Made by a program: the position numbers and the translations under genes. From a bacterium (lineage in GTDB: Bacteria > Vulcanimicrobiota > Vulcanimicrobiia > Vulcanimicrobiales > Vulcanimicrobiaceae), in NCBI GenBank assembly GCA_021778415.1, contig JAJYCL010000015.1, positions 1-64,000 of the forward strand: a stretch of 64,000 nucleotides of DNA. Direction: 5' to 3'. Numbering within the stretch: position 1 is the stretch's first letter; every line of letters starts with the position of its first letter. Under the pieces are notes generated by a model that was not told where the DNA came from, did not search any database, and saw only the letters and a list, made by a program, of their open reading frames with translations. Shown here in pieces: positions 1,721 to 18,995 of the stretch.

Positions 1721-1755
1721 ACAGGGCAAACGTGGTAGCGCCAACGGGAATCGAA
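1721..1755. repeat. attL: left copy of the 35-bp attachment repeat
   Basis: Matches 18909-18943 at 34 of 35 positions; the one difference is A at 1728 versus T at 18916. It contains 'GTGGTAGCGCCAACGGGAAT', the complement of the tRNA-Glu acceptor end and part of the T arm. Beyond 1755 similarity to the tRNA stops, so this is only the 3' tRNA fragment left by site-specific integration. Confidence 0.88.
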
Positions 1756-2728: not shown

Positions 2729-4657
2729 TCAGCGATGAACAGTCACGAAATCTCGGTGCGATGATACAAGTCTCATAAGCAACCGCGAGGCGACCGAATA
2801 TTCGTCGGCAACGCCAATAACGAGCGTGTCAATGGCCCGCGTCAAGGGGATGAGAATCCAGTCGAGCGCGCGCCGCTTAGCAAACTCTTCTCTAAGAAAC
2901 TGCGGTAATCCATCGGTGGGTAGTTCGGAAGCGGCTCGCAGCTTAGCGGCGTAGAACTCGTCGAAATTTTCAAGCGCCACTATCCAACCTTCTAACCCGC
3001 GACAGGACTCGTATTGGACAATACGAATGTCGTCGGCGGAGGATGGCACGCCGATGCGAACTTCTCTATCAACAGCATCGTAAACAGAATAGCCGCTTTC
3101 TTGAAAGGCCTTTCCTAAGGAAGAGCGGCGCAATCCACGCTCCGCCTTGACGCTGTCGGGCGGCACACAAAAAAGGTGATCTACTGGCTTAAGCGACTCG
3201 TCCTCACGAGACAGCAGTTGCTTCAATACTTCAAGATGGCGGGAAGGCGAGCCGATGAGGATATGCACCTCGCCGCCGCTCAACTCTCCGTCCGATTCGA
3301 TCACCAGACCGTGATCTCCGAACGCTCGAGCAACGGCAGTTACGAATAATGCGAGATTCGGCTTCATGCGCAGACATCGCTCAAGATTGATTAGCCTTAG
3401 TTCGTGTGGCGGCGGCGGCGTCCAGTCGCATGGCATGTCAAGGCGAACGAGTTGGCGATGCCCGACACTGATGACCAGATTCTTCGGCAAATAGGCCGCG
3501 TGTAGGAAATCGCGCTCAGCATCATCCCAGTCTTGTGCTTCATCAACCATCACTGTCGCATAACCAAGGATTGCCGGATTCGCCTTCTTGGCGCGGCTTA
3601 TTTCTTCCGGTGTGACATCACCCGAGGCAACTCTTTCATTTAGGGCCTTGAGCGCTGGAAGATAGCCTCGATCAAACCAATCTTCGTCTATCTCGGAGGG
3701 CTCCGCCTGACCAAGAGCAACCAACCAGCAACGGAAAAATCTGTGGAGAGTTTCAACATTTACACTACGCCCAAATGCTGACTGCCGAAGGCCTAGGACT
3801 TGCAGTTGCCGATAGAGGTCCGAGGTAAGCGCAGTATGATAGGTCAAGATCAAGCAGCGTTGACCTGACTCGAAGAGATCGCGCGCGAGCCGAAGGAGAA
3901 TTGCTGTCTTTCCTGCGCCGCCGAAACCGTCGAACTGAAGCTGTTTCTTGCCGAGATCAACGAGTTCCATCGCTTTGTATCGGCTGTGCGCCAGTGCTTC
4001 TACTCGGCGCCTAAGGAGACCAGATGGAGCGAGGACTCGACTTAACATCTGAACGCCGCGTTTAAAATCAAAATCCCGCTTAAGCAAACGTACGTTGTGA
4101 ATGCCGTCTAGTCGCAACAGCGTCTTGCCAAGAATCTCCGAGAAAGGGGAATCAGAAAAGAACGCATCTAATGGTAGCTCGGAAGCATCGCAGTTGAATT
4201 GCTCTTTCTTGCATTGCGACAGCCACACAAAGTCCATTACATACGGCGCCTCGGCGAACCCCCGGCGCGTGAAGAACTTCTTGATCGCAAATACTTGCCT
4301 GAACGCTTGCAGAGTCGCATCGCTCTTGCCTTCCGGATACTGAACGTAGACCTTGTCCCCTTCCAGCCATACTCCCGGCGGCGTATGTGATTTCACTTCG
4401 ACCGTGGCCGAAAATGAGTAGCATAACGAGGTCTCTCCGTCAACTGTAAATGGGAGCGGTGTATCGAATTTTCCAAGGAGATACAAATCTACGTTTTTGC
4501 AATCTGCGCAGAATGGCGTTTGCAAAGAGACAAAGATGTACAGTGCCTGATCAGCGGCGGAGGCAAGGCTCGGATACTCGCATAAAATCGCGTCGCGCAA
4601 CTGCCTAGCAGCGCGCGCCTCGCCCGAGTCATCATCGTCGCCTACAATCGTGATCAA
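2729..4657 (-). CDS. NERD-like nuclease domain fused to an SF1 (UvrD/Rep-like) helicase, sixth gene of the Druantia operon
   Basis: 642 residues. The N-terminal part (about 50-130) has a strand ending in Asp57 ('NVDLYLLG') and then 'VEVKSH' (Glu87-x-Lys89), the D...ExK arrangement of NERD and other PD-(D/E)xK nuclease folds. Residues 240-630 look like an SF1 helicase: Walker A 'GFGGAGKTA' (244-252), Walker B 'VMVDEAQDWDD' (369-379), a motif III-like 'VISVGHRQL', a motif V-like 'ESCRGLEGWIV' and motif VI 'IPLTRAIDTL'. A cytoplasmic nuclease-helicase acting on DNA is inferred. It starts with TTG 8 bp after druE and lacks a clear ribosome binding site, so it is probably translated by coupling. 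Canonical Druantia type I has five genes, so this is an unusual addition. Function in defence is inferred from position only. Confidence 0.75.
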   Translation of the reverse strand: MITIVGDDDDSGEARAARQLRDAILCEYPSLASAADQALYIFVSLQTPFCADCKNVDLYLLGKFDTPLPFTVDGETSLCYSFSATVEVKSHTPPGVWLEGDKVYVQYPEGKSDATLQAFRQVFAIKKFFTRRGFAEAPYVMDFVWLSQCKKEQFNCDASELPLDAFFSDSPFSEILGKTLLRLDGIHNVRLLKRDFDFKRGVQMLSRVLAPSGLLRRRVEALAHSRYKAMELVDLGKKQLQFDGFGGAGKTAILLRLARDLFESGQRCLILTYHTALTSDLYRQLQVLGLRQSAFGRSVNVETLHRFFRCWLVALGQAEPSEIDEDWFDRGYLPALKALNERVASGDVTPEEISRAKKANPAILGYATVMVDEAQDWDDAERDFLHAAYLPKNLVISVGHRQLVRLDMPCDWTPPPPHELRLINLERCLRMKPNLALFVTAVARAFGDHGLVIESDGELSGGEVHILIGSPSRHLEVLKQLLSREDESLKPVDHLFCVPPDSVKAERGLRRSSLGKAFQESGYSVYDAVDREVRIGVPSSADDIRIVQYESCRGLEGWIVALENFDEFYAAKLRAASELPTDGLPQFLREEFAKRRALDWILIPLTRAIDTLVIGVADEYSVASRLLMRLVSSHRDFVTVHR

Positions 4658-4665
4658 GGGGAGAG

Positions 4666-7600
4666 CTACTGCGTCGCTCGGACAACGAGGTCAAACACTG
4701 AGGGAAGATCTCGTATGAGGTCATATGCGCTAACCGATAACGTCCACCCGTTGCTATTCTTTGGTGCGGGCGCACCGTCACTACCCGCAAGAATCCCGCT
4801 CCTAACGGTTACGATGGTACCGTCGACACATAACGGAACGTCTTTACCATCCGAAGTCGCAGAGTAACGAACGCCGCTTAGGTCAAGCATTCGTTTCAGG
4901 GCGCGAAGTCGCTGCGACTGCGCCGGAATCGATGCCTCCGGTATCTCGAGCCCTAATGTGGTACTAAGTAAAAGGTCGCGCCCTAGGTGCCGATCCAGTC
5001 TGTCCTTCAAGTGCTGGTTGTGGTAGTGCCGTAGGCAATCTTGGCACGACGATTGACATTTGCTTGGGCACTTGTCGAGAAGCTCGATGGCGTCGCGCAA
5101 AATCCCGTCTATGTGAAGGCCAGCTATTTCACTGTAGCCAGCGCCGCCCGAAGTGGCGTCGAACAGATAGAGATCAGCAACGCAGAGTTCCGTATCGCTC
5201 GCCGGATTCACCCGGAAACCGGCGCCAAGTTCACTCTGGCTAATGTCGAGTTGCGGATGACGACAAGCAGCCTGTTTTATCGCTTCGGCTGCGCTGTAGA
5301 GAGCGTCTTCTATAACCCGCAGAGTCCCCTGGTTTGTCGTATCTGTTAGCAGAGGCTTCCTAAGAGTAAGGCGCAGCAGAAGCAAATCGGTTGTAAAAAC
5401 GCCTCCTAGGTAAACTAGTCTGAGGTTCCCCTGGCAACGCGAGGGTCGTCTACCCCGTTTTAAGGGAAGTAAATAGGGTCGCTCGTGAGACCCAGTGTGA
5501 GCGATGTCCGGCGTGGCGAAACCACAGTGGTCGCAAACTAGGAAGCCATCGTAGCTCCCGTCACGACGCCTCTTACCCTTGTTGACCGTTATCAGCCGAC
5601 GGTCCCTCGTATACGTTACTGAGCAATTTGCGCTTATATCGCGCCAGCTCGTTACGTCATCACCTATAGGGACAGGGAACTGTGCCATGGTCGCATACGT
5701 GATGTCTTGCTCTCTGTCGTCTTCTTTCAACTCTCGGGCAGCTTCCGGGACGAAAACCTCCGGCTGTATTGTTTGGTGAAGCGCCAAGCGGCTATGGCAA
5801 ACCGGGCACTCCGTACGGTTCTGTAAACCGCCCTCCTGAACAAAACTACAGGCCGTGCAATACGCGAGCAACATCGCTGATTCGAATAAAGGCGCTGCCT
5901 TCCGCGTCGCGTCTTGCGAAAAGCTGGCGATCACTCCGCCCGAGCGGTACGTCTTCTTGTTGACAACGAGCAACCGCCCCGGCGCGTATTCGCTCAGTGC
6001 TTTGTCGATGGCTTGTTGCGGGTTTTCTTTGACTTTCACGGTTTGCCACTCGTCCCGCAAGACGTATTCCTCTATGCGAAAGCCTGTCAAATTGGTTGGG
6101 AAAGCGTAGCTCGGTAGCAAGTTCTCAGAGAAGAGAAATTCTAGCAGCGTGTCCGCCTCAGCACCGTCAGCGGCGTCATCGTAGTCTTCATCGGTGCTCG
6201 AGGGTTTCTCACTGCTCCCGTCAGAGGCGTCAGCGGTCCGGCTTTCTACTCTCCCTTGAAGAGAAACTAATCGTTCACAGAATTCTGTTGAAACGACCTT
6301 AATCCAATCCTCCCTAGTAGACGCAACCGTTAAGCCCCCCGGGAGCCACGATGCGATCTCCCCACAGAGCGCGCCGCTTACTATGTTCTCCTGAATCCAT
6401 CGCGAGAAGGCCTCCAGGCTCGTCGCGCCACTACCGAGGAAGAACTCCACCGTCGAACCCAAGGCCATTTCAAGTCTGGATGTGTCGGTGTCCGGTTTAA
6501 TATCGCCGGCTTCAATTGCCCGATCAAAAAAGGTCTGCAGCAAGAACGAATGGACGTGACGACGGGCAATCTTTTCATTATCGGTCTTGATAACGGGGGT
6601 GGGTGGCGCCCCGGCGACGATCTTCTCCGGATTATTAAAGTAGTAAGAATCGTGCGGCCCATTTTGCGCATACGTAAGGACTGTGGATACGGATGATCCG
6701 CGACGGCCGGCACGGCCAGCTCTTTGTTGGTAGTTTGATCGCTGCGGCGGAACATTTCTGAGCCCAACTGCCAGGAGCGACCCGATGTCAATACCGACTT
6801 CCATGGTTGTCGTACAACTCAGAACGTCAATAGGGCGGTCAGTCTTCGCAACCATCAAATCTTGGAAGCGCAACTCGTATATCTCAGTAGTTGCCTGAAC
6901 GCTTGCCCTATCACGATGCGATAGTTGCGCTGTATGTTCCTCAACCGAAACAGACTCAATTGCTCCCACGTCATTGAGAGCCTCGCGCACTGGATCGCGC
7001 CAGTATGATTTTCTGGCTATTAGGTACCGGGACTCTAAGGGCGACAACAGTTCCACTCTCGGAGAGACACAATAGATGCAATGGCCCCTCAGTGAAACGA
7101 AGCTTAACCTCGTGCAGGCCTGGCATTGATACCACGACCGCTCCAGATCTACGCGCAGAGAAAGCCTACGCGGAGTGAGGAAAAGAGTGCCTTCTCTTGG
7201 GCCCGACTCGCCAAGACCGTCGGCGACGGCGCGAATTATTTGGTCGAGATCCTCCGATTCGATTTCCATGAGCTCGGCGATTTTTCGTGATTGATCTTTC
7301 CCGAGCGTGGAAGCAGTCCCCCAGCCAAACTTTCCAGGATAGCCGCCAGCCTGCCAGCGCGCGTGGTCCTCTATTTGAGAGTCGAATGAAAAATTGTCAA
7401 GACAGCGTTGAATCCAGGCAGAAGCGAGCGCCTCGACATCGACCGCGCTGATAGATTTGCAAATCGCTGTGATTGCCGCATTTAGTCGGTTTGCTTCACG
7501 TCTAACGGGGGCGACACTGCCAATCGCAGTATCTGTGATTGAATAGAAGCGTGAGCAAAGTTGCCGTAATAGGTAACTTTGATACCGTGATGGGGCTGTA

Positions 7601-10152
7601 AGATCTGGCGCTAACTCGTCAATGACCCTGTCCAAATCGCCATCGTATTCCCTTCGAAACTGGGCTACGTGGCGCTCGAGTGCCTCGCGCGCTTCGCCGT
7701 CATACATTAATAGATTGGTGTCAGCGAGTACCCCGAGAAAAGCTATGTATAGCTCCTTGCCAAGTCGAGCCTCACCGCGCTCATCCTCGACACGCTTTGC
7801 GGCAACTGAGATCGCCTGACGAAATACATCCAGTTCCACAGCGCGGGGCAAATCACGCGCAAGCCGCGCTGCCTTTTGTCGCCCGTCCGAAAACAGTAGT
7901 ACCTTCTTCCCGCCGTTCGGAAACTGAAGCGACGTTGGTTTTGACTCCGGCTGACTCCGCAGTTGCGTCGCAACGAGTGCCGCAAAAGGATCCTCGCCTT
8001 TGGTGACGTGGTCCATAATCCTTTGAGACTCGTCTCGCCAGGACTTAAGGCACACAGGGCAACTTTGGAAAGTAAAATCGGCCCCTTCTTCCGCGGCACT
8101 ACGATCAGGCAAATACACGCGTCTGAAACCAGCGTCACCCGGGTCGGCATCACGAATTTGCCCGGTCGCGACGTCAACCCACGCCGTGCGAAGCAAACCT
8201 ATCTGATCTTGATGCGGTTGGCCCTCTATTAGCAACTGAATTTCGGAAAGCGTCGCTGCCGCGCCGAGCATCGTGCGTTCGTAGCGCTCGCTCCAGAGAA
8301 AATCACCCTCGGTTCCCCTAATGAATGCTCTCAGGAACGCCGAGCCGCAGTCCCTATGCGTCAATAACTCGAAAACGCGCGCCTGCTTTTTGCAATCGCA
8401 AGTGACGCGGGGGTCTGTATGTAGCCTGCCAATTATGGCACCAGCCGCCGCGCTTCGTCTTTCAGAGCAGTTCGGGTCAACACACGCGTAGAGCCCCGGC
8501 AGGCCTCTAAATAGCATGTGCACTCGAGTTGGCAGTACTACCCGTCCGTCGGCGCGCCGCGCATAAGTACATAGCGCCAACAGCGAACTCAGGGAATCCT
8601 CGGCCTTTGAAAGTTCACTCGTCGGAAACAAGTCCGCGGCCAGGCGCTGCAAGCTCAGGGTAGCGCCCGAGATTTGCGAAATTAATCGTCGCGCAACGGG
8701 CAGATTGAAGAGCAACTCGCCGACGGCGACTCGCAGTTGCTCATCCGTCTCGACCGCAATATCGTCCCTCCCAAGCTTCCGAGATAGCGCATTGACCTCG
8801 GCGAGGGCTTTACCAACATCGTGCGTCCGGGCGTCGAGCCGTGCCACGCTAAACTCTTCCAGAATCTTCGCGATTTTTTCACTGGCAGGTTCTCCGACGG
8901 GTATCGGTTCCAGCGTCCCTTCAACGTGAGCAAACTGGTTGGCGACCTTGCGGACACCAGTCAATTCCCTAGCAAACCTCTTTGCGTCCTCAACAGCCGT
9001 CTCGCCTGATCCAAAGCTAGCGCTGGTAAGAATAAATCGAACTCGTTCCCTACTAATCCCCAAGCGTGAGATTAAGCGCCTTAGTAACAGGGCGACCTCT
9101 GCGCCGGCAACGCCAGAGTAAAGATGCGCCTCGTCTAAAACGATGGTGAGTACGTTACGATTGTCCGCCCTTAACCACTCTCTCGTCTGCTGAAAAATAT
9201 TTCGCTCAATCGGGCGAAGCAGCATATATTCAAGCATGGAATAGTTCGTGATCATGAGGTCGGGGCATGCTTGCTGTACCTCATGACGAGTCATCAGCTC
9301 GCGATCTGAGGCGCACGTCTTGAGCCGCTCAGCCCAGTTCCACCTTGTTCGATTCTTGTTAGTGCGCGTGACAAATTGCGTCGCTTTACTAGCTGCGTAG
9401 AAAGCCGTCAGGTCCTTCGCGGGCCATTTCCCTGACTGGCGCAGCTTCTGCACGATGTCGGGGTGGGCATCGAGTGGGATGTAATATTCTTCAAACAGTG
9501 GTCGGATCAAGGAATGATCCTTTTTGGCCTCCTTCTTTCCGGGATAGGGTGTACGTCCCGTATACGAAGCGAAGCGTATTGGCCGATCACGGTGGCGCGA
9601 GATGCGCTCAGAAGCCGCCTCCGTTCCGAACAGGCGCCGCACACGAGCCAACTGATCGTTCACCAGAGCGTTCATGGGGTAAAGGAGGAGCGCTCGCATC
9701 CCAGGCATTTTCGCGCTTTCCTTGCGTTCGGCGGCCTCTTGAGCGAGCATACCAAGGATTGAAAACAAGAACGTTTCCGTTTTACCTGAACCAGTACCGG
9801 TGGCCACGATTACGTCTTGCTCTTCCTGCAAAAACGCGCTGAGCGCCTGTTCTTGATGCACATACAAGCGCGGAAAGACTCCTACGTTCATTTGTATCAG
9901 ATCGACAAGCAAGTTGCGCGCAGGACTTGGAATATCAATATCTGACATCGCAGAGCCAAGTTGGTAGCTGGGCGTTGCTTCTAGGAACGGATCATTAGAG
10001 ATTGAACCATGCTCGCGTAAGAGGGCATTCCGCTCGTCGATTAGAGCCTCGTTCCGGACATGGTATTGCGCTTCGATGTAGGCGCGAAGTCGATCAGCCA
10101 AAGTATTGGAAATATTGTGAACGCCTTCGGGCGCACGAAGTTTTTTAACCAC
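4666..10152 (-). CDS. druE: Druantia anti-phage protein DruE, giant DEAD/DEAH helicase with DUF1998
   Basis: 1828 residues, the expected size for DruE. The N-terminal helicase core shows Walker A 'ATGTGSGKTETF' (117-128), 'LLYPMNALVNDQLARV', 'ITNYSMLEYMLLRP' and the DEAH box 'LDEAHLYSGVAG'. The second RecA-like lobe has 'QRAGRAGRRG' (motif VI). The C-terminal region contains the DUF1998 cysteine cluster 'CPSKCQSSCQDCLRHYHN', a likely metal site as in MrfA-type helicases. DruE is the component common to all Druantia types. It starts at GTG 10152, overlapping the end of druD by 8 bp. No frameshift is seen across 5.5 kb, which argues for a maintained, functional system. The biochemical role in phage defence is known only in outline. 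Confidence 0.9.
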   Translation of the reverse strand: MVKKLRAPEGVHNISNTLADRLRAYIEAQYHVRNEALIDERNALLREHGSISNDPFLEATPSYQLGSAMSDIDIPSPARNLLVDLIQMNVGVFPRLYVHQEQALSAFLQEEQDVIVATGTGSGKTETFLFSILGMLAQEAAERKESAKMPGMRALLLYPMNALVNDQLARVRRLFGTEAASERISRHRDRPIRFASYTGRTPYPGKKEAKKDHSLIRPLFEEYYIPLDAHPDIVQKLRQSGKWPAKDLTAFYAASKATQFVTRTNKNRTRWNWAERLKTCASDRELMTRHEVQQACPDLMITNYSMLEYMLLRPIERNIFQQTREWLRADNRNVLTIVLDEAHLYSGVAGAEVALLLRRLISRLGISRERVRFILTSASFGSGETAVEDAKRFARELTGVRKVANQFAHVEGTLEPIPVGEPASEKIAKILEEFSVARLDARTHDVGKALAEVNALSRKLGRDDIAVETDEQLRVAVGELLFNLPVARRLISQISGATLSLQRLAADLFPTSELSKAEDSLSSLLALCTYARRADGRVVLPTRVHMLFRGLPGLYACVDPNCSERRSAAAGAIIGRLHTDPRVTCDCKKQARVFELLTHRDCGSAFLRAFIRGTEGDFLWSERYERTMLGAAATLSEIQLLIEGQPHQDQIGLLRTAWVDVATGQIRDADPGDAGFRRVYLPDRSAAEEGADFTFQSCPVCLKSWRDESQRIMDHVTKGEDPFAALVATQLRSQPESKPTSLQFPNGGKKVLLFSDGRQKAARLARDLPRAVELDVFRQAISVAAKRVEDERGEARLGKELYIAFLGVLADTNLLMYDGEAREALERHVAQFRREYDGDLDRVIDELAPDLTAPSRYQSYLLRQLCSRFYSITDTAIGSVAPVRREANRLNAAITAICKSISAVDVEALASAWIQRCLDNFSFDSQIEDHARWQAGGYPGKFGWGTASTLGKDQSRKIAELMEIESEDLDQIIRAVADGLGESGPREGTLFLTPRRLSLRVDLERSWYQCQACTRLSFVSLRGHCIYCVSPRVELLSPLESRYLIARKSYWRDPVREALNDVGAIESVSVEEHTAQLSHRDRASVQATTEIYELRFQDLMVAKTDRPIDVLSCTTTMEVGIDIGSLLAVGLRNVPPQRSNYQQRAGRAGRRGSSVSTVLTYAQNGPHDSYYFNNPEKIVAGAPPTPVIKTDNEKIARRHVHSFLLQTFFDRAIEAGDIKPDTDTSRLEMALGSTVEFFLGSGATSLEAFSRWIQENIVSGALCGEIASWLPGGLTVASTREDWIKVVSTEFCERLVSLQGRVESRTADASDGSSEKPSSTDEDYDDAADGAEADTLLEFLFSENLLPSYAFPTNLTGFRIEEYVLRDEWQTVKVKENPQQAIDKALSEYAPGRLLVVNKKTYRSGGVIASFSQDATRKAAPLFESAMLLAYCTACSFVQEGGLQNRTECPVCHSRLALHQTIQPEVFVPEAARELKEDDREQDITYATMAQFPVPIGDDVTSWRDISANCSVTYTRDRRLITVNKGKRRRDGSYDGFLVCDHCGFATPDIAHTGSHERPYLLPLKRGRRPSRCQGNLRLVYLGGVFTTDLLLLRLTLRKPLLTDTTNQGTLRVIEDALYSAAEAIKQAACRHPQLDISQSELGAGFRVNPASDTELCVADLYLFDATSGGAGYSEIAGLHIDGILRDAIELLDKCPSKCQSSCQDCLRHYHNQHLKDRLDRHLGRDLLLSTTLGLEIPEASIPAQSQRLRALKRMLDLSGVRYSATSDGKDVPLCVDGTIVTVRSGILAGSDGAPAPKNSNGWTLSVSAYDLIRDLPSVFDLVVRATQ

Positions 10153-11221
10153 GCTCTATGTCCTTTCGGGCAGCATCGGTAATGCTTAGGCCGAGCGATT
10201 CCATGATCGCCGCGGTAACGTCAAATAGCGGTTTCGGTACGCGGAAGCCGACCGATGTTACCGTGGCCGTTGAGAAGATTCGTCCCTCTGGCATTGGGAA
10301 GCGCCCCTTAAAGCGAACGAGTACCATGCCATGTTCCAACTCCACACTTACTTGGCGTTGCTGTCCTGATGCAGCTTGGATTCCGAACAACATGCGGACG
10401 CCGTCATCCCGCCTAAGGGGCGCGCGTTGCTGAATGCTGATACGATTCTCCCGCTCTATAAACGTGGCGAGCCAATACTCTTTCATTCTTGAAGATCCAG
10501 GCTGAAGCGACCGACACAAGTATATTTGAGCTGGAAGTGCTCTTATTGCGTCGGCATTTTTCCATCGATACCCTTGCCGCGATCTCACTAGCACATCAAA
10601 CTCACTAATGAGTTGTGGGCCTACACTTGCGTTCGCAATTTCGGCAGCCATGGTCGCTGCTGTCCATTTCCTAAGCGGTTGCGGGTCCAGCTTGAGCCAA
10701 GAATCCGCCCTCTGCCAAAGTCGCGAATTGTCGCGCAGCGACTTCGAAAGACTGTCGTATCTGCAATAACGCAGGATGCCGCACTGACGTACTTCGACGC
10801 CAAGCAGTTCCTGTAAGGTGTTGGTTGACTGACAACCTAGCACAATCGCATATTGGCTGTCTTTACCTGGTCGGACGAGACGCGAAGCAGTAGCCTGCCA
10901 GCGTTTGCTTTCAGTTCTGGAGGCCTCGCCGAGATGAACCAGTCTCGTAAGAACCGCGTCAATCCACTGCCCGGTTCCGACCCCTAATGCTCTCGACACG
11001 TCGTTGTTCAAGTGCTCCTGATCGAAGAGACCCGCAATTCGATCTCCTAACGTACTTTTGAGCGCGACAGTAGGGACGCCGTCGCGGGAGCTGGCGATTA
11101 CCGAGCGAACGGCGGCACTCGCCACCGCTATTGTTTGCTCAATAGAGGATCCCTCGAGGTTCCATGCGCCACACAACTTTTTTAACGCATAACTTGGAGT
11201 AACAAATGACGCAGCTTGCAT
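10145..11221 (-). CDS. druD: Druantia type I protein DruD
   Basis: 358 residues with no motif I can name. The assignment comes from order and size: it lies between druC and druE in a druABCDE array, and DruD is the roughly 350-residue member of type I systems. The protein appears soluble, with mixed alpha/beta character and no signal peptide or membrane segment. The start is ATG 11221, 5 bp after druC, and its end overlaps the druE start by 8 bp, so the three genes are almost certainly co-translated. Its molecular function is unknown. Confidence 0.75.
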   Translation of the reverse strand: MQAASFVTPSYALKKLCGAWNLEGSSIEQTIAVASAAVRSVIASSRDGVPTVALKSTLGDRIAGLFDQEHLNNDVSRALGVGTGQWIDAVLTRLVHLGEASRTESKRWQATASRLVRPGKDSQYAIVLGCQSTNTLQELLGVEVRQCGILRYCRYDSLSKSLRDNSRLWQRADSWLKLDPQPLRKWTAATMAAEIANASVGPQLISEFDVLVRSRQGYRWKNADAIRALPAQIYLCRSLQPGSSRMKEYWLATFIERENRISIQQRAPLRRDDGVRMLFGIQAASGQQRQVSVELEHGMVLVRFKGRFPMPEGRIFSTATVTSVGFRVPKPLFDVTAAIMESLGLSITDAARKDIERG

Positions 11222-11226
11222 AATAC

Positions 11227-13071
11227 CTACTTAAGCGCGCTGGCAATACGAGGCTTGCTCAAGAACTGCGAAAACCTGCTGCCCTGGGACAGCGCTTCGC
11301 TAATTGCCGTCTTTTGAATTCCCCTCGCAAGTAGGTGCGGTATCACCCAGGACGTCAGCAGGGACGCATCGTCCGCTTTATCCGCCGCAGCGCTGTCCTT
11401 CGGTACAATCGAAATTGCCGCAAATGCATTCTTAACGATACGCTTCCATAACTCGCTACCCGCGTTCGTGACGAGCGGAACGTCGGCGATTAGGTCCTCC
11501 CAGAAATCCCGAGCCGCACCATCGGCAAACTGGAAGGTCGGCGGCTTCATCCGAACGCGCCTTAACGCCCTTCGAATCGGTGATTCGTTCCACGACAGCG
11601 CGTCCGAATCAATAATTGGCCCGAGTTCAGAGAACGCAAGTTCCGAGGGCAGGCCACTCGGCGGTGGCGCCAGCGTTAGGAAGCAGATAGGTACGGCTGT
11701 CAGCAGGTGGCGGGAGAACTGATTCTCCATGATCCGACTCTTGGAAGCCGCAGCATAAAGCTCGATGGATCCCACGTTGGCATTATTGAGGATAAGGCAA
11801 GTACGTGGCGGCCCGTTCGCAAGCTCGCGCCCGTCCGAGAAGCCTATCGGAATATCAGCAACGGCGTAGTCGCTCGCGGCGAGGCTTGTAGCGCAGACCT
11901 GCGCAACCCACAGCGCGGCACTTCCTGAGAACGTTACTCCCTGTCCCGACAACACGGCTGCAAGAACCTCGCGCGCAACTTCTTGCGCACAGCTTTGCGT
12001 GACGCCCGAATAAGCCAGGTTTTGCCGAAGCGCGTCAGCGATCTCCTCAAGATTATCGATTTGCTGTTCTTCTTTGTCCGACTCGAATAGTTTTGCGCCT
12101 TCTCTAAAGGAGAGCGCTTCTGATTGGCGCTCCGCCCTAGCGGAAATCTGACGTATCTCCAGCGGGGGAGAAACGACTGGAGTCACATTGATGCTGCTTA
12201 GGCGATCAACTAAGTCCTGCATTTGCTTTGCTCTCTCCGAGCTGTCTCTGCGCAGGTCTTCAATGGCCGCACTGGTCGAAACTATCACATCGCGCTCACC
12301 GTCGGCTTTCTTGGCGGAGGCCCTTGCCTCGTCAAGGCTCTTGTGAATTGCTGGAAGCTTTCCGGCAATATCTGTAATTTCACTTCTCAGCGTCGTGATT
12401 TCTCCAGCCGCTTCGGTGGCTTTGACAAACGCTGCAGAATTCGCGCTGACCTCAACGGTTAGCTCTGCATTCGCTTTTGTTATGCTGTTGATGCTCGCCG
12501 TGAGCGCCGTCAGTCGCTCATCCAGCTTGTCTAGTAACACATCAATTGCGTCGAGCCGCTTCGCCGTCTGCCGCGCGCTTTCCAACTCAACCTTTGGCGA
12601 CGCCGCCTCAGAAGCCTCATCGATTAATGAGTCGCGCACTGGTGCAAACAGCGAGAACGTTTCGATATCTTCACGCGACGCCTTTTTATCGGTGGCAAGC
12701 TCAAGGAGTCGCATCCCAATCTCAGCACCAATATCGGCTTCTGGTTGCCCATTAGGCCTCACGGCCTTGGCGGCCAGCTTCGTTAGTTCTACGTCTTCAA
12801 AGGTCGCGGCGGTCCAAGCAGACCAAAGTTGCGCCAAGGAAAGCCAGTCTTTATCTGACGATGCCTGATCCGCACCGTCGCCCGAGATTCTGTGTGCAAG
12901 CACGCTTCTTTTGCGCTTGTATTCCGATTCAGAGCCCCGGCGAAATCCGGCTGGTCGGATGTGGGGAATGAAGCCATTCCCGTGCGCGAACTTTATCCGA
13001 TCAAGGAAGCCCGCAATTGTAGCGTGATCAAGATCGCCGATGCGCTTCTTGATGTCTTCAGAATAGCTCAA
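11227..13071 (-). CDS. druC: Druantia type I protein DruC, coiled-coil protein
   Basis: 614 residues. A long heptad-like coiled coil spans about 165-300, with many Leu, Ala, Glu and Ser residues ('LDKLDERLTALTASINSI', 'ITTLRSEITDIAGKL'). It is flanked by an N-terminal alpha-helical region and a C-terminal globular part of about 300 residues without a recognised motif. Position and length match DruC of type I systems. The TTG start at 13071 overlaps the druB stop (TTGA), a typical coupled junction. A structural or oligomerising role is plausible from the coiled coil but not shown. No membrane segments are seen. Confidence 0.77.
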   Translation of the reverse strand: MSYSEDIKKRIGDLDHATIAGFLDRIKFAHGNGFIPHIRPAGFRRGSESEYKRKRSVLAHRISGDGADQASSDKDWLSLAQLWSAWTAATFEDVELTKLAAKAVRPNGQPEADIGAEIGMRLLELATDKKASREDIETFSLFAPVRDSLIDEASEAASPKVELESARQTAKRLDAIDVLLDKLDERLTALTASINSITKANAELTVEVSANSAAFVKATEAAGEITTLRSEITDIAGKLPAIHKSLDEARASAKKADGERDVIVSTSAAIEDLRRDSSERAKQMQDLVDRLSSINVTPVVSPPLEIRQISARAERQSEALSFREGAKLFESDKEEQQIDNLEEIADALRQNLAYSGVTQSCAQEVAREVLAAVLSGQGVTFSGSAALWVAQVCATSLAASDYAVADIPIGFSDGRELANGPPRTCLILNNANVGSIELYAAASKSRIMENQFSRHLLTAVPICFLTLAPPPSGLPSELAFSELGPIIDSDALSWNESPIRRALRRVRMKPPTFQFADGAARDFWEDLIADVPLVTNAGSELWKRIVKNAFAAISIVPKDSAAADKADDASLLTSWVIPHLLARGIQKTAISEALSQGSRFSQFLSKPRIASALK

Positions 13072-14669
13072 CCGTTACTACCTACTGGATTAGCGGCATT
13101 GTTCCAACATTGGAGCAAATATCGGTAATGCGCCAGATGCTGTCTTTTTAAGGCAACAACCTGAAGCGCATCAATTAAAACGGCATCGTCGTGCGATGTG
13201 GACAACGCACGAAGGCCGTCGTGGTAGTGCGAAAGCAGCCATTTTAGCGTTCCTCGCGCCCACTCGGGTAGCACGCGAGCCGAGCCTTCGGCCGCGCTTG
13301 CGTTTGCCTTGAACCGATGATATCCCAATGGGCCAAGATCAACAAGGAGGTCCGTGGTCGCGTCCTCAAGACGAGTGCGTAGATCAACATGGTCTATCGG
13401 GTCGCTCCAGGGCCGAGCATAGCTCGCTCGTCTCATTATCCTCGGCGGCGGGCATCCGGTTACCGAGATCTCGACCGCTTTTGTACGCCCCCGCCGAACG
13501 CGAAGCATCAGCCCACGAGCAGCCTCCGAGTAGAATGGCGCACTTATAGTTGATCGCGAATCCGTCACAGAGATTTCTGCACGCGCATCGCCCTTGTTGA
13601 GCTCCAGCTCACCGATCGTAAACAACATACCTGGTTCGTCGCCGCACCGCATATACAGGAGTGTATCCTTCCGATTGATTGGCATTGACACTACGGTGCA
13701 CTTTTCGGCTGGCATGGCCAGGACCGCGGGACCGGAGTTTGTTTCAATCCAAATTTCGTTCGAGATGTCAGAGGCAAGCGTCTCGCGCTGAACCAAGACA
13801 AGCGCCTCATCACCTCTGCTTAACTGGCGCGGCAGACCGTTGTCAATTTTCTGTACATCCGGGTATATCAGCGTCACTTTCGCACGGCGTTCGTGGAGCG
13901 AAAGCCCCGTATTATCCAGGCACCATTTGGCAGCGGCGTCGTTTGGATTTTCCGGCAGAGTTACCAAATAGCACTCATGATCGTCGCGCGGTAAGAGCGC
14001 CTCCGGCCGCAGAGCCTTCGGAATCGCCGCCCGGGCGCCCGCGCGCAAGACGAAGTAATACGATGAGCCCCAGAATAGCTTTCCGGCGCGCCGATAATAT
14101 CGATCCCAGTCAGAAACCTGAAATGCCGTTACACCTCCTGCGTTTAGCATGGTCTCCGACGCTCGAATGCGATTCAAATACGAGACGTCGACATCTTTAC
14201 TCGCAGAAACGAAGCCGATAGTGAAATTGCCTGGCGCCACAGCAATGTGCCGCGTTGTCGAGTGCAACGACGAGATTGGGATCACTCGCACGTCGTTCTC
14301 TGCAACACGAACGCTAATCTCGCCGGCATAGCTTCCCGACGGTGGGAGCAGCAAAAACAGACGCCAACTTGCCTTGTCATTGGCGTTGATGCACAGCGTT
14401 AAACTTGCGTAACGGACGGATTCACGTTGAGTTCGCGAAGCCGGCTGGAAGGCCGTTCGACCGGCGCAACCCGTACCCGACCAGGGCGAGTACAACTCGC
14501 AATCCGATTCGCCTTCGCCCGGATAGTGCTTGAAGTGTGCTTCCCGCCAATCTCCTCGATTGAAATAAACGCGCGCATTGCATTTTCCGCACCGATAGGG
14601 ACGATGGCGCTCGACTACATCGTCGGCGCTGATGTGCTTATTGGCGAGTTCATCCCACGCGAACTTCAC
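13068..14669 (-). CDS. druB: Druantia type I protein DruB, N-terminal zinc-ribbon-like motif
   Basis: 533 residues. The N-terminus carries a metal-binding-like arrangement: Cys27-x2-Cys30, His45-x2-His48 and Cys57 ('RCGKCNARVYF', 'AHFKHYPGEGESDC'). It resembles the zinc finger at the start of CoiA-like competence proteins. The remainder is beta-rich and unassigned. Order and length match DruB. The GTG start at 14669 has a good ribosome binding site (GAGGA about 9 bp upstream). It lies 87 bp after druA and overlaps druC by 4 bp. The metal site hints at nucleic-acid binding, but this is inference. Confidence 0.78.
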   Translation of the reverse strand: MKFAWDELANKHISADDVVERHRPYRCGKCNARVYFNRGDWREAHFKHYPGEGESDCELYSPWSGTGCAGRTAFQPASRTQRESVRYASLTLCINANDKASWRLFLLLPPSGSYAGEISVRVAENDVRVIPISSLHSTTRHIAVAPGNFTIGFVSASKDVDVSYLNRIRASETMLNAGGVTAFQVSDWDRYYRRAGKLFWGSSYYFVLRAGARAAIPKALRPEALLPRDDHECYLVTLPENPNDAAAKWCLDNTGLSLHERRAKVTLIYPDVQKIDNGLPRQLSRGDEALVLVQRETLASDISNEIWIETNSGPAVLAMPAEKCTVVSMPINRKDTLLYMRCGDEPGMLFTIGELELNKGDARAEISVTDSRSTISAPFYSEAARGLMLRVRRGRTKAVEISVTGCPPPRIMRRASYARPWSDPIDHVDLRTRLEDATTDLLVDLGPLGYHRFKANASAAEGSARVLPEWARGTLKWLLSHYHDGLRALSTSHDDAVLIDALQVVALKRQHLAHYRYLLQCWNNAANPVGSNG

Positions 14670-14756
14670 GCTTTCTCTTCCTCAACTCGAAAAAAACGAG
14701 CGGCTTTCAGACCCTTTATCGGGTGCTCGCGACGGAACCCTGCCGGGACGTTTGCA

Positions 14757-15938
14757 CTATTTGCCGGTTATTTCGGCAAGAAAATCTTCCCGACGCCACT
14801 CCCGGTAGGTCGGGACCCGCTCGCTCCTTGGGATGACCCATCTATCCAGGGAGAGTCTCGCGATTTCACTGGCGCTTTTGCACTGATCCGGATTCAAGTC
14901 TTTGACCTCGCCACGCAAATATGCGAGTGAGTTTGCGCCGGTCTCGCAGACAAACACCTCTCTTGCGATCCCATGCTGCGTCAATTGCGGCGAGAGCCCG
15001 ATACGCGTGATGGCCTCTCGGACAACTCTCAGGCGCCAGTTTGGGCCGTTACCGTAGGAATGTTTATTTGCGTACTCGTGCCCGACCATTTCGAGGTAAA
15101 GCCGCATATCCAAAAAGAGGCTGTCCGGAATGTGAAAATGCCCATAGCCCTGAGTTTGGCCAACCGAAAGAAAATACTGATCGCCACCGAGACGCAATCT
15201 GTTGTAGACGGACGACCTACCGAGGGCGGAGCTTGTGGTGATCATTGCAAGGGGTGCCTTGCGTCGACGCTTACCGCTTATGATGGAAACGTAGTTCCGG
15301 TACTTCGCCGCGAACGCCTCGGCTACATCGGTAGAGCGCAACAAACAAGCGAGCATTTTTCCGCACAGCAACGCATTGTAAGGTGGGACTGCTCCAAGGA
15401 CATATGCATCCATGACCGACCAGAGGCGCTCACGACGGTCGTCCCCGTTCCAACCAATATAGCGGTCACGCGCGCCCAGATTGAAAACAGGATCGCCGAG
15501 AGCAACGATACCGATCAAACAATCGGTGTTGTCATCCCAGCAAAGAAAACGAAGGCGTCTCCCGTAACCGGCGGAAGTCGGAACACTCCAGTAGAGAGAT
15601 GCAAGCGCAAACAATTGCGAGTGCCACGTGTCGCCGTCCACTAATTCCAATCGCGGCCTAATCTGAGTGGGGCTAACATCGGACCCATTTGCAAAATATC
15701 GTGCGAACTCCGGCCAGAGTTCGATCAAGTTGCGCGACTTTTTTAATTTGGCTCTGCGCTGATCGCTGTGACGATGGCGAATGGCGTCTTTCGTAAGAGC
15801 GCTTTCGTCTTCGCACGCCATACCTAACTTGTTTAGGTGATAACGAAATCGCCGACGCAAAGATGTTTCAAGGCGTTTACGCTTCTCAGCCGGAGAGTAT
15901 CTTCGTTTAGCAGGCATTGGACGTCTTGCGTAGGCCAC
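14757..15938 (-). CDS. druA: Druantia type I signature protein DruA (DUF4338)
   Basis: 393 residues. The DUF4338 core is clear: 'LIGIVALGDPVFNLGARD' (141-158), 'IGWNGDDRRERLW', 'MDAYVLGAVPPYNALLCGK' (176-194), 'TTSSALGRSSVYNRL' (about 238-252), 'GWGHFH'-like 'GYGHFHIPD', and a C-terminal 'LDRWVIPRSERVPTYREW'. This family defines Druantia type I and makes the neighbouring unnamed genes identifiable. The N-terminus is strongly basic (Lys/Arg-rich, residues 9-70). The GTG at 15938 is used here; an ATG at 15917 is an equally possible start. It is the first gene of the defence operon, 124 bp after the integrase on the same strand. Confidence 0.92.
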   Translation of the reverse strand: MAYARRPMPAKRRYSPAEKRKRLETSLRRRFRYHLNKLGMACEDESALTKDAIRHRHSDQRRAKLKKSRNLIELWPEFARYFANGSDVSPTQIRPRLELVDGDTWHSQLFALASLYWSVPTSAGYGRRLRFLCWDDNTDCLIGIVALGDPVFNLGARDRYIGWNGDDRRERLWSVMDAYVLGAVPPYNALLCGKMLACLLRSTDVAEAFAAKYRNYVSIISGKRRRKAPLAMITTSSALGRSSVYNRLRLGGDQYFLSVGQTQGYGHFHIPDSLFLDMRLYLEMVGHEYANKHSYGNGPNWRLRVVREAITRIGLSPQLTQHGIAREVFVCETGANSLAYLRGEVKDLNPDQCKSASEIARLSLDRWVIPRSERVPTYREWRREDFLAEITGK

Positions 15939-16992: not shown

Positions 16993-17156
16993 ATGAACCC
17001 CTCATTTCTAGAATCGGAGAACAACAGGTTATCCGACGTTAGAAGACCGATCACTTATCTGCTGAATGCACTCAGTACCCCGGCAACCTTTCGGAAAATG
17101 TCGTGCCGATTTTCGGGCAATTCTACGGAGCAGCGTAGCCTCTTGCATGCATAGTA

Positions 17157-17625
17157 TTATGCGGCCTTCTCGTTTGCAGGTGCAATCGCGTGGTACCCGT
17201 TAATTCGTCGCCATGTCTTTGCTGAGCGTTCGATGAGCTTAAACATGAGCTAGAGCGCCGATGCGCCGATGCACCGCTGCGTAGCCGTTTTGCCACGTTG
17301 GCGCAAAGGCGGGCGCTCGAAAATACCGCCCCAATGGGATTCGTTGTGCGCAAGTTCTTCCAACTCGCTTGGGGAAACGCGAAATACGCGAGCCTACGAT
17401 CGATATCATCTCGAACGCTTGCCCCCGCTTTCGAATAATCATTTGAGAGCGAAATGGCAAGCGTTTCGATCTTGCTCGTCGGCTCCGTACGTGTAGTAGA
17501 ACGACATATTTCGCGTAAATTCCGGTGCACGTCCGATTTGGGCCGCTCGCGCACCTTATCCAGAATATTGCGCATCTTGTGCAACCAGCAGCGCTGACAA
17601 GAATCCATTTGTTCCGTCCGCAATG
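17157..17625 (-). pseudogene. IS256-family transposase relic
   Basis: Three minus-strand frames together give the C-terminal half of an IS256-type transposase: 'QRCWLHKMRNILDKV', then 'LAYFAFPQASWKNLRTTNPI', then 'ANVAKRLRSGASA', and in another frame 'KLIERSAKTWRRINGYHAI' ending at the TAA at 17157-17159. The frame changes and missing N-terminal half show it is dead. Upstream it abuts an integrase relic on the opposite strand, so the junction probably marks an old insertion or deletion. I could not identify terminal inverted repeats. Confidence 0.75.
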
Positions 17626-18120
17626 GCAAGCCATGGAGCGCGCAAGCTGATCTCGCTTTCGCAAACGAGGGACGCCATTTCGCTCAAGAGTACAAAAACG
17701 GATCGCACCCGTATGATTCCTCTCTCACGCGCTGCCCTCGAAGCCCTACGCCGTCAACGCGCGACGCAGTCGGCAGACAAGCTACGGTCCGCGGAGCTCT
17801 ATGAGCATACCCGATTCGTATTCGCCGATGAACTCGGGGGCTGCGTCTCGCCAATGGCAGCGACGAGTGCCTATGCGCGAATCGCGGTGAAGGCAAAACT
17901 TTCCTCGACTCGATTGCATGATCTCCGCCATACCGCGGCGACAACGATGCTGCAAGCGGGAACCGACGTTGTCACGACCGCGGGCGTACTCGGGCACTCG
18001 ACGCCGACAACGACGCTTGGCGTTTACGCTCACGTTCTTCGCGAATCCAAGCGCAAGGCGACGGATCGCCTTGGCGAAGTTTTCGATGCAATTGCGCTCA
18101 AGAAGAGCCGAAGCAGTTAG
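17623..18120 (+). pseudogene. Tyrosine integrase C-terminal fragment
   Basis: About 165 codons encode only the second half of a phage-type integrase: the Lys strand 'LKSTKTDRTRMIPLS', then 'RLHDLRHTAAT' (HxxR), 'GVLGHSTPTTTLGVYAHV' (box II His and the nucleophile Tyr) and a basic tail. The core-binding domain and the first catalytic Arg are missing. The visible homology starts abruptly next to the IS256 relic. It is unrelated in detail to the integrase at 16063-16992, so it is probably left over from an earlier element at the same tRNA. Confidence 0.8.
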
Positions 18121-18916: not shown

Positions 18917-18943
18917 AACGTGGTAGCGCCAACGGGAATCGAA
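18909..18943. repeat. attR: right copy of the attachment repeat, in tRNA-Glu
   Basis: Matches 1721-1755 with one mismatch. It covers the tRNA-Glu CCA end, acceptor strand and part of the T arm, plus 12 bp of downstream DNA that form one arm of the terminator hairpin. Confidence 0.88.
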
Positions 18944-18995
18944 CCCGTCTTTGCCACGTGAAAGGCGGCTGTCCTAACCGATAGACGATGGCGCC
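18921..18995 (-). tRNA. tRNA-Glu (anticodon TTC)
   Basis: 75 nt. The minus-strand sequence begins GGCGCCATCGTCTATCGG, has the anticodon loop CTTTCAC with anticodon TTC, the T arm GGGTTCGATTCCC and an encoded CCA end. The acceptor stem pairs over 7 bp with a G-U at the first position. It is the integration target of the island and is intact. Confidence 0.93.

Follow-up and report, generated by a model that had tools for sequence, protein, structure and literature searches.

The stretch of DNA analysed here (the window, 64,000 nucleotides) carries a Druantia type I operon followed, in the same direction, by a gene for a putative nuclease-helicase, and it raises the question of what that sixth gene contributes to the system. 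The DNA-cutting part of type I Druantia is itself in question because the nuclease domain of type I DruE looks dead. The locus is a complete Druantia type I operon on a 17.2-kb tRNA-Glu island, and we consider it fairly probable that the operon-linked sixth gene supplies an optional nuclease effector in trans, serving types I and II/IV.

The operon and its island

An earlier note on this DNA had named DruA and DruE and proposed that the three unnamed genes between them complete a Druantia type I operon. Searches with the PADLOC profiles, which that note had suggested, bear this out: all five proteins match type I profiles in the canonical order, the 393-residue protein being DruA by both PADLOC and Pfam and the 533-, 614- and 358-residue proteins being DruB, DruC and DruD (Table 1). 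For DruE, PDLC00013 is the top-scoring of all the DruE models, and Pfam recognises DEAD, Helicase_C and MZB (E = 3.4e-9) domains; the protein contains an MrfA Zn-binding/DUF1998 module and a short C-terminal tail of 121 aa. The N-terminal segment of DruB resembles a CoiA-like zinc finger at a sub-threshold level (Pfam CoiA_N, E = 8e-4, under the cut-off). DruA and DruE are each 47% identical to their counterparts in E. coli MB1, and DruB, DruC and DruD are 22–25% identical (for DruD, 23% across the alignment, blastp E = 2e-7). The open reading frames all lie on the minus strand, as had been described, with overlaps at the DruB/DruC and DruD/DruE junctions and a 5-bp gap between DruC and DruD. 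On this sequence evidence, druA-druB-druC-druD-druE is a complete Druantia type I operon with a predicted anti-phage role.

Two parts of the earlier account need revision. Its extent of the operon stands for the five genes, but a sixth co-directional gene within the same range had been left undescribed; and the surprise attached to a plain Druantia I was overrated, as 69 of the 5,426 complete E. coli genomes carry a Druantia I DruE. The canonical operon also occurs on a P. putida plasmid, and a five-gene Druantia I in another lineage is, by itself, an ordinary further member of a known system.

The view that the operon sits on a tRNA island is upheld by a 27-bp exact direct repeat, one copy of which overlaps the 3' end of tRNA-Glu, and none of the shuffles reached as many matches. 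Besides the five Druantia genes and the sixth gene, the 17.2 kb bounded by the repeats hold an integrase, an integrase fragment and a Mutator-transposase fragment. The SAM-like N-terminal domain of the integrase scores 20.6 bits, under the Pfam cut-off of 22.3. Scans for sigma-70 promoters and terminators across the island gave results no better than shuffles. The Mutator-transposase and integrase fragments are remnants of earlier insertions. Elsewhere in the same genome (G000, contig C6, 72037-83160; positions 4037-15160 of locus L066), a second DruE-like YprA helicase of 1699 aa immediately follows homologues of PsyrT, PsyrA and PDC-S06, in another defence island; a relative, G023, has the same DruE-like gene (L068).

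Table 1. Features of the island, with positions in the window
Feature	Position	Strand	Evidence or remark
Distal att-like repeat, 27 bp exact	1729-1755	+	Direct-repeat search
Sixth gene, NERD-like PD-(D/E)xK nuclease (predicted) + UvrD/Rep-type SF1 helicase, 642 aa	2729-4657	-	Conserved residues, AlphaFold/Foldseek, PADLOC
DruE, YprA-like SF2 helicase, 1828 aa	4666-10152	-	PADLOC PDLC00013, 1963 bits, E 0
DruD, 358 aa	10145-11221	-	PADLOC PDLC00009, E 7.7e-13
DruC, 614 aa	11227-13071	-	PADLOC PDLC00006, E 1.2e-46, residues 2-594
DruB, 533 aa	13068-14669	-	PADLOC PDLC00005, E 4.4e-30
DruA (DUF4338), 393 aa	14757-15938	-	PADLOC PDLC00002, E 1.5e-152; Pfam DruA PF14236, 271.9 bits (cut-off 27)
Tyrosine-recombinase integrase, 309 aa	16063-16992	-	Pfam Phage_integrase, 40.1 bits (cut-off 27.1)
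Mutator-family transposase fragment	17123-17629	-	
C-terminal integrase fragment	17623-18120	+	
Proximal att-like repeat, 27 bp exact	18917-18943	+	Overlaps tRNA-Glu 3' end
tRNA-Glu	18921-18995	-	

The sixth protein

The sixth gene starts 8 bp past the stop codon of DruE. Its start codon is TTG, with no evident Shine-Dalgarno sequence, and the homologues in an alignment of 25 start at the same position. The residues E13, D57, E87xK89 and Q121 are invariant in all 25 homologues, as are the Walker A motif GxGKT and the Walker B motif DExQD. The former set comprises the residues of a PD-(D/E)xK nuclease of the NERD type, and the protein is predicted to be a nuclease. The AlphaFold model (mean pLDDT 85.3) is matched by Foldseek to SLFN11, Rep, UvrD and PcrA at E-values of 1e-10 to 4e-13, and also to Upf1, and the PADLOC candidate profile C3a187 (NERD+UvrD) matches the protein with E = 1e-4. 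The Pfam NERD profile (PF08378) has no match in the window's protein and reaches E = 0.036, under the cut-off, in one homologue; the domain is therefore referred to here as NERD-like, a term that makes no claim to NERD family membership. Profiles for Nhi and Gabija GajB match the helicase part weakly and incompletely and do not extend over the whole protein, and a search of phage records found no homologue. Identity with DruG or another known Druantia subunit was ruled out, as none of the PADLOC Druantia profiles matches.

In the tree of the sixth protein, the homologues linked to DruF-DruE cluster together (support 90/82), and so do three of the four type I homologues (support 100/98). The protein of the window falls outside both groups on a long branch (2.41), which suggests that it was either separately recruited or has diverged far; its grouping with the other type I homologues is unsupported.

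Linkage to DruE

A search for the sixth-protein family in a species-genome collection (84,980 genomes) yielded at least 28 loci, and in 10 of the 28 listed the gene directly upstream of the homologue is DruE, often with a 4-bp overlap (L026, L029, L030, L031, L032, L033, L036, L039, L042 and L047). The homologue sits before DruF-DruL-DruE in L028 and L052, opposite a DruE gene in L048, and before DruM-DruF-DruE in L067, which comes from another genome in the host's family; the arrangement in two plasmid loci (L002 and L003) and in the insertion-broken L004 also agrees with linkage to DruE. The DruE-linked homologues spread over several phyla, and about a dozen homologues among the matches listed, from Cyanobacteria, Bacteroidota, Dadabacteria and others, have no DruE nearby. 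An assignment of the NERD-linked DruF loci to type III was rejected, as PADLOC gives DruF/DruE2 and DruL, not DruH. Further genes accompany the homologue in two of these loci: a 385-aa UvrD-type helicase and a 548-aa protein with no Pfam match directly before it in L067 (992-3792), and a cytosine methyltransferase and an MvaI/BcnI restriction endonuclease after it on an Alisedimentitalea plasmid (L002, 18097-20711).

The linkage was also sampled from the side of DruE, by searching three genome samples with DruE profiles and analysing the flanks; the loci were chosen regardless of the sixth gene, which makes this sample less biased. In this sample, a NERD-helicase is the next gene in three of the four evaluable type I loci: a sixth-gene homologue adjoins DruE in L073 and L075 and a different NERD-UvrD protein does so in L077, whereas L074 has no NERD-helicase next to DruE (L076, a type I locus that is cut off, was left out of the count). 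None of the 11 type III (DruH-DruE) loci has a NERD-helicase next to DruE (Fisher p = 0.009), two of these loci being called by profile and the others by DruE score, size and neighbour. The contrast weakens when plasmid and E. coli loci are added, giving 5/13 for type I and 3/9 for type II/IV-like loci. The gene is absent from E. coli MB1, P. putida, Nitrosococcus, four haloarchaeal loci and one sampled type I locus. Given this mixed presence, the sixth gene is optional and not required for Druantia I.

The position after DruE is also occupied by a second, distinct NERD-UvrD family in three loci (Leisingera, Paracoccus and the genome G1017), and in Deinococcus a relative of this family is encoded 640 bp past DruE. 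The second-family proteins tested (L063 and L064; Leisingera and Deinococcus) exceed the Pfam NERD cut-off, and an hhalign comparison of the family with the sixth protein gives a probability of 98.2 and E = 3.3e-14, with the ExK site within the alignment. The presence of two distant families at one position argues for function. We tentatively suggest that NERD-helicases may be a swappable nuclease effector of types I and II/IV, such that DruE types whose C terminus lacks an active nuclease would rely in trans on a recruited nuclease-helicase, drawn from two or more distant families, whereas in type III the nuclease is part of DruE itself.

Proposed role and comparison with known systems

The tails of type I DruE are about 121–142 aa long and hold no conserved catalytic set, and those in operons that lack the sixth gene are equally short where measured; three measured type III tails span 388–410 aa. 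Published work describes the Vsr domains of type I and II DruE as predicted to be inactivated (PMC12458937) and places PLD nuclease domains in the tail region of type III DruE. It further reports that the DNA engaged by type III DruE has 3' single-stranded parts and that changing its active PLD pocket abolishes defence, so that cleavage is required (PMC13192584). A Pfam run on the type III tails did not recognise PLD domains, and the assignment there follows the papers. The model of the DruE tail in the window is poor (mean pLDDT 54.8, with the last 95 residues below 50), too poor for a dead Vsr fold to be confirmed by structure, and our argument from the tail therefore uses its length and residue conservation only.

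Since no active nuclease can be recognised in type I DruE, we propose the sixth protein as the cutter. DruA-DruD would recognise the infection, and DruE, an SF2 helicase, would load on phage DNA that is partly single-stranded and open it, as shown for type III DruE. The sixth protein would enter on the exposed strands by means of its own SF1 motor and cut with its NERD-like site, providing nuclease activity in trans to DruE as an optional module, not a core part. In canonical operons that lack the gene and have equally short tails, the DNA must be cut by another nuclease, or defence must proceed without cutting.

Five-gene Druantia I is sufficient for defence in E. coli, and this fact lends itself to two other explanations. 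The sixth protein may be a self-sufficient defence, an Nhi- or Gabija GajB-like nuclease-helicase that does not act with DruE and is found beside Druantia because both are defence-island cargo. The homologues that occur apart from any DruE are consistent with such independence, as is the weak similarity to the GajB, Nhi and C3a187 profiles; however, the repeated immediate adjacency with 4-bp overlaps, the occupation of the same position by two distant NERD-helicase families and the difference from type III loci go beyond what co-residence in islands usually produces. We regard an independent system as a possibility to be taken seriously, towards which the evidence does not lean. That the locus is a plain Druantia I followed by a passenger gene without any part in defence, for instance one for a DNA-repair helicase, seems very improbable: the divergence of the protein and its long branch would fit a passenger, but the nuclease and ATPase residues are all kept, the gene lies within a mobile island, and DruE-linked homologues occur in several phyla.

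The recurrent, operon-linked nuclease-helicase is a named, mutable candidate for the nuclease that type I Druantia seems to lack; if it acts in trans to DruE, as we favour, the definition of Druantia operons would extend to a sixth gene. In the passages covered of indexed full texts on Druantia and NERD, no NERD protein is placed in Druantia, and a full-text search on Druantia, UvrD and nuclease gave no further description of such a gene.

Several known systems share elements with the locus. Nhi and other NERD-UvrD nuclease-helicases (PADLOC C3a187) resemble the sixth protein in joining a nuclease domain to an SF1 helicase, but the profile similarity is weak and limited to the helicase part. 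ARMADA and TALON, as described in PMC12458937, resemble the locus in pairing a YprA-like helicase with a UvrD-type helicase (ArmD) and a NERD nuclease, respectively, and differ from it in lacking DruA-DruD; ArmD has a RelE-like domain, not NERD, and the TALON nuclease, described as a NERD-type endonuclease, has TPR-CSD and TBP partners.

Among Druantia systems, types II/IV (DruF, DruL, DruE and sometimes DruM) share DruE with the window but have DruF/DruL in place of DruA-DruD, and the sixth-gene homologue lies downstream in L002, L003 and L030 and upstream in L028, L052 and L067. Druantia I of E. coli MB1 (NZ_CP073994.1; L072) consists of the same five genes in the same order, and the lengths of its DruA to DruE proteins (404, 548, 627, 347 and 1836 aa) are close to those in the window (393, 533, 614, 358 and 1828 aa); this operon lacks the sixth gene and has an IS3 transposase after DruE. 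In the type I variant loci L073, L075, L026 and L032, unlike in the window, one protein of ~950 aa, which has no PADLOC or Pfam match (tested in L026), replaces DruB and DruC, and in L026 and L032 DruA is a long form on the opposite strand. These variants share with the window DruA, DruD, DruE and a sixth-gene homologue immediately following DruE.
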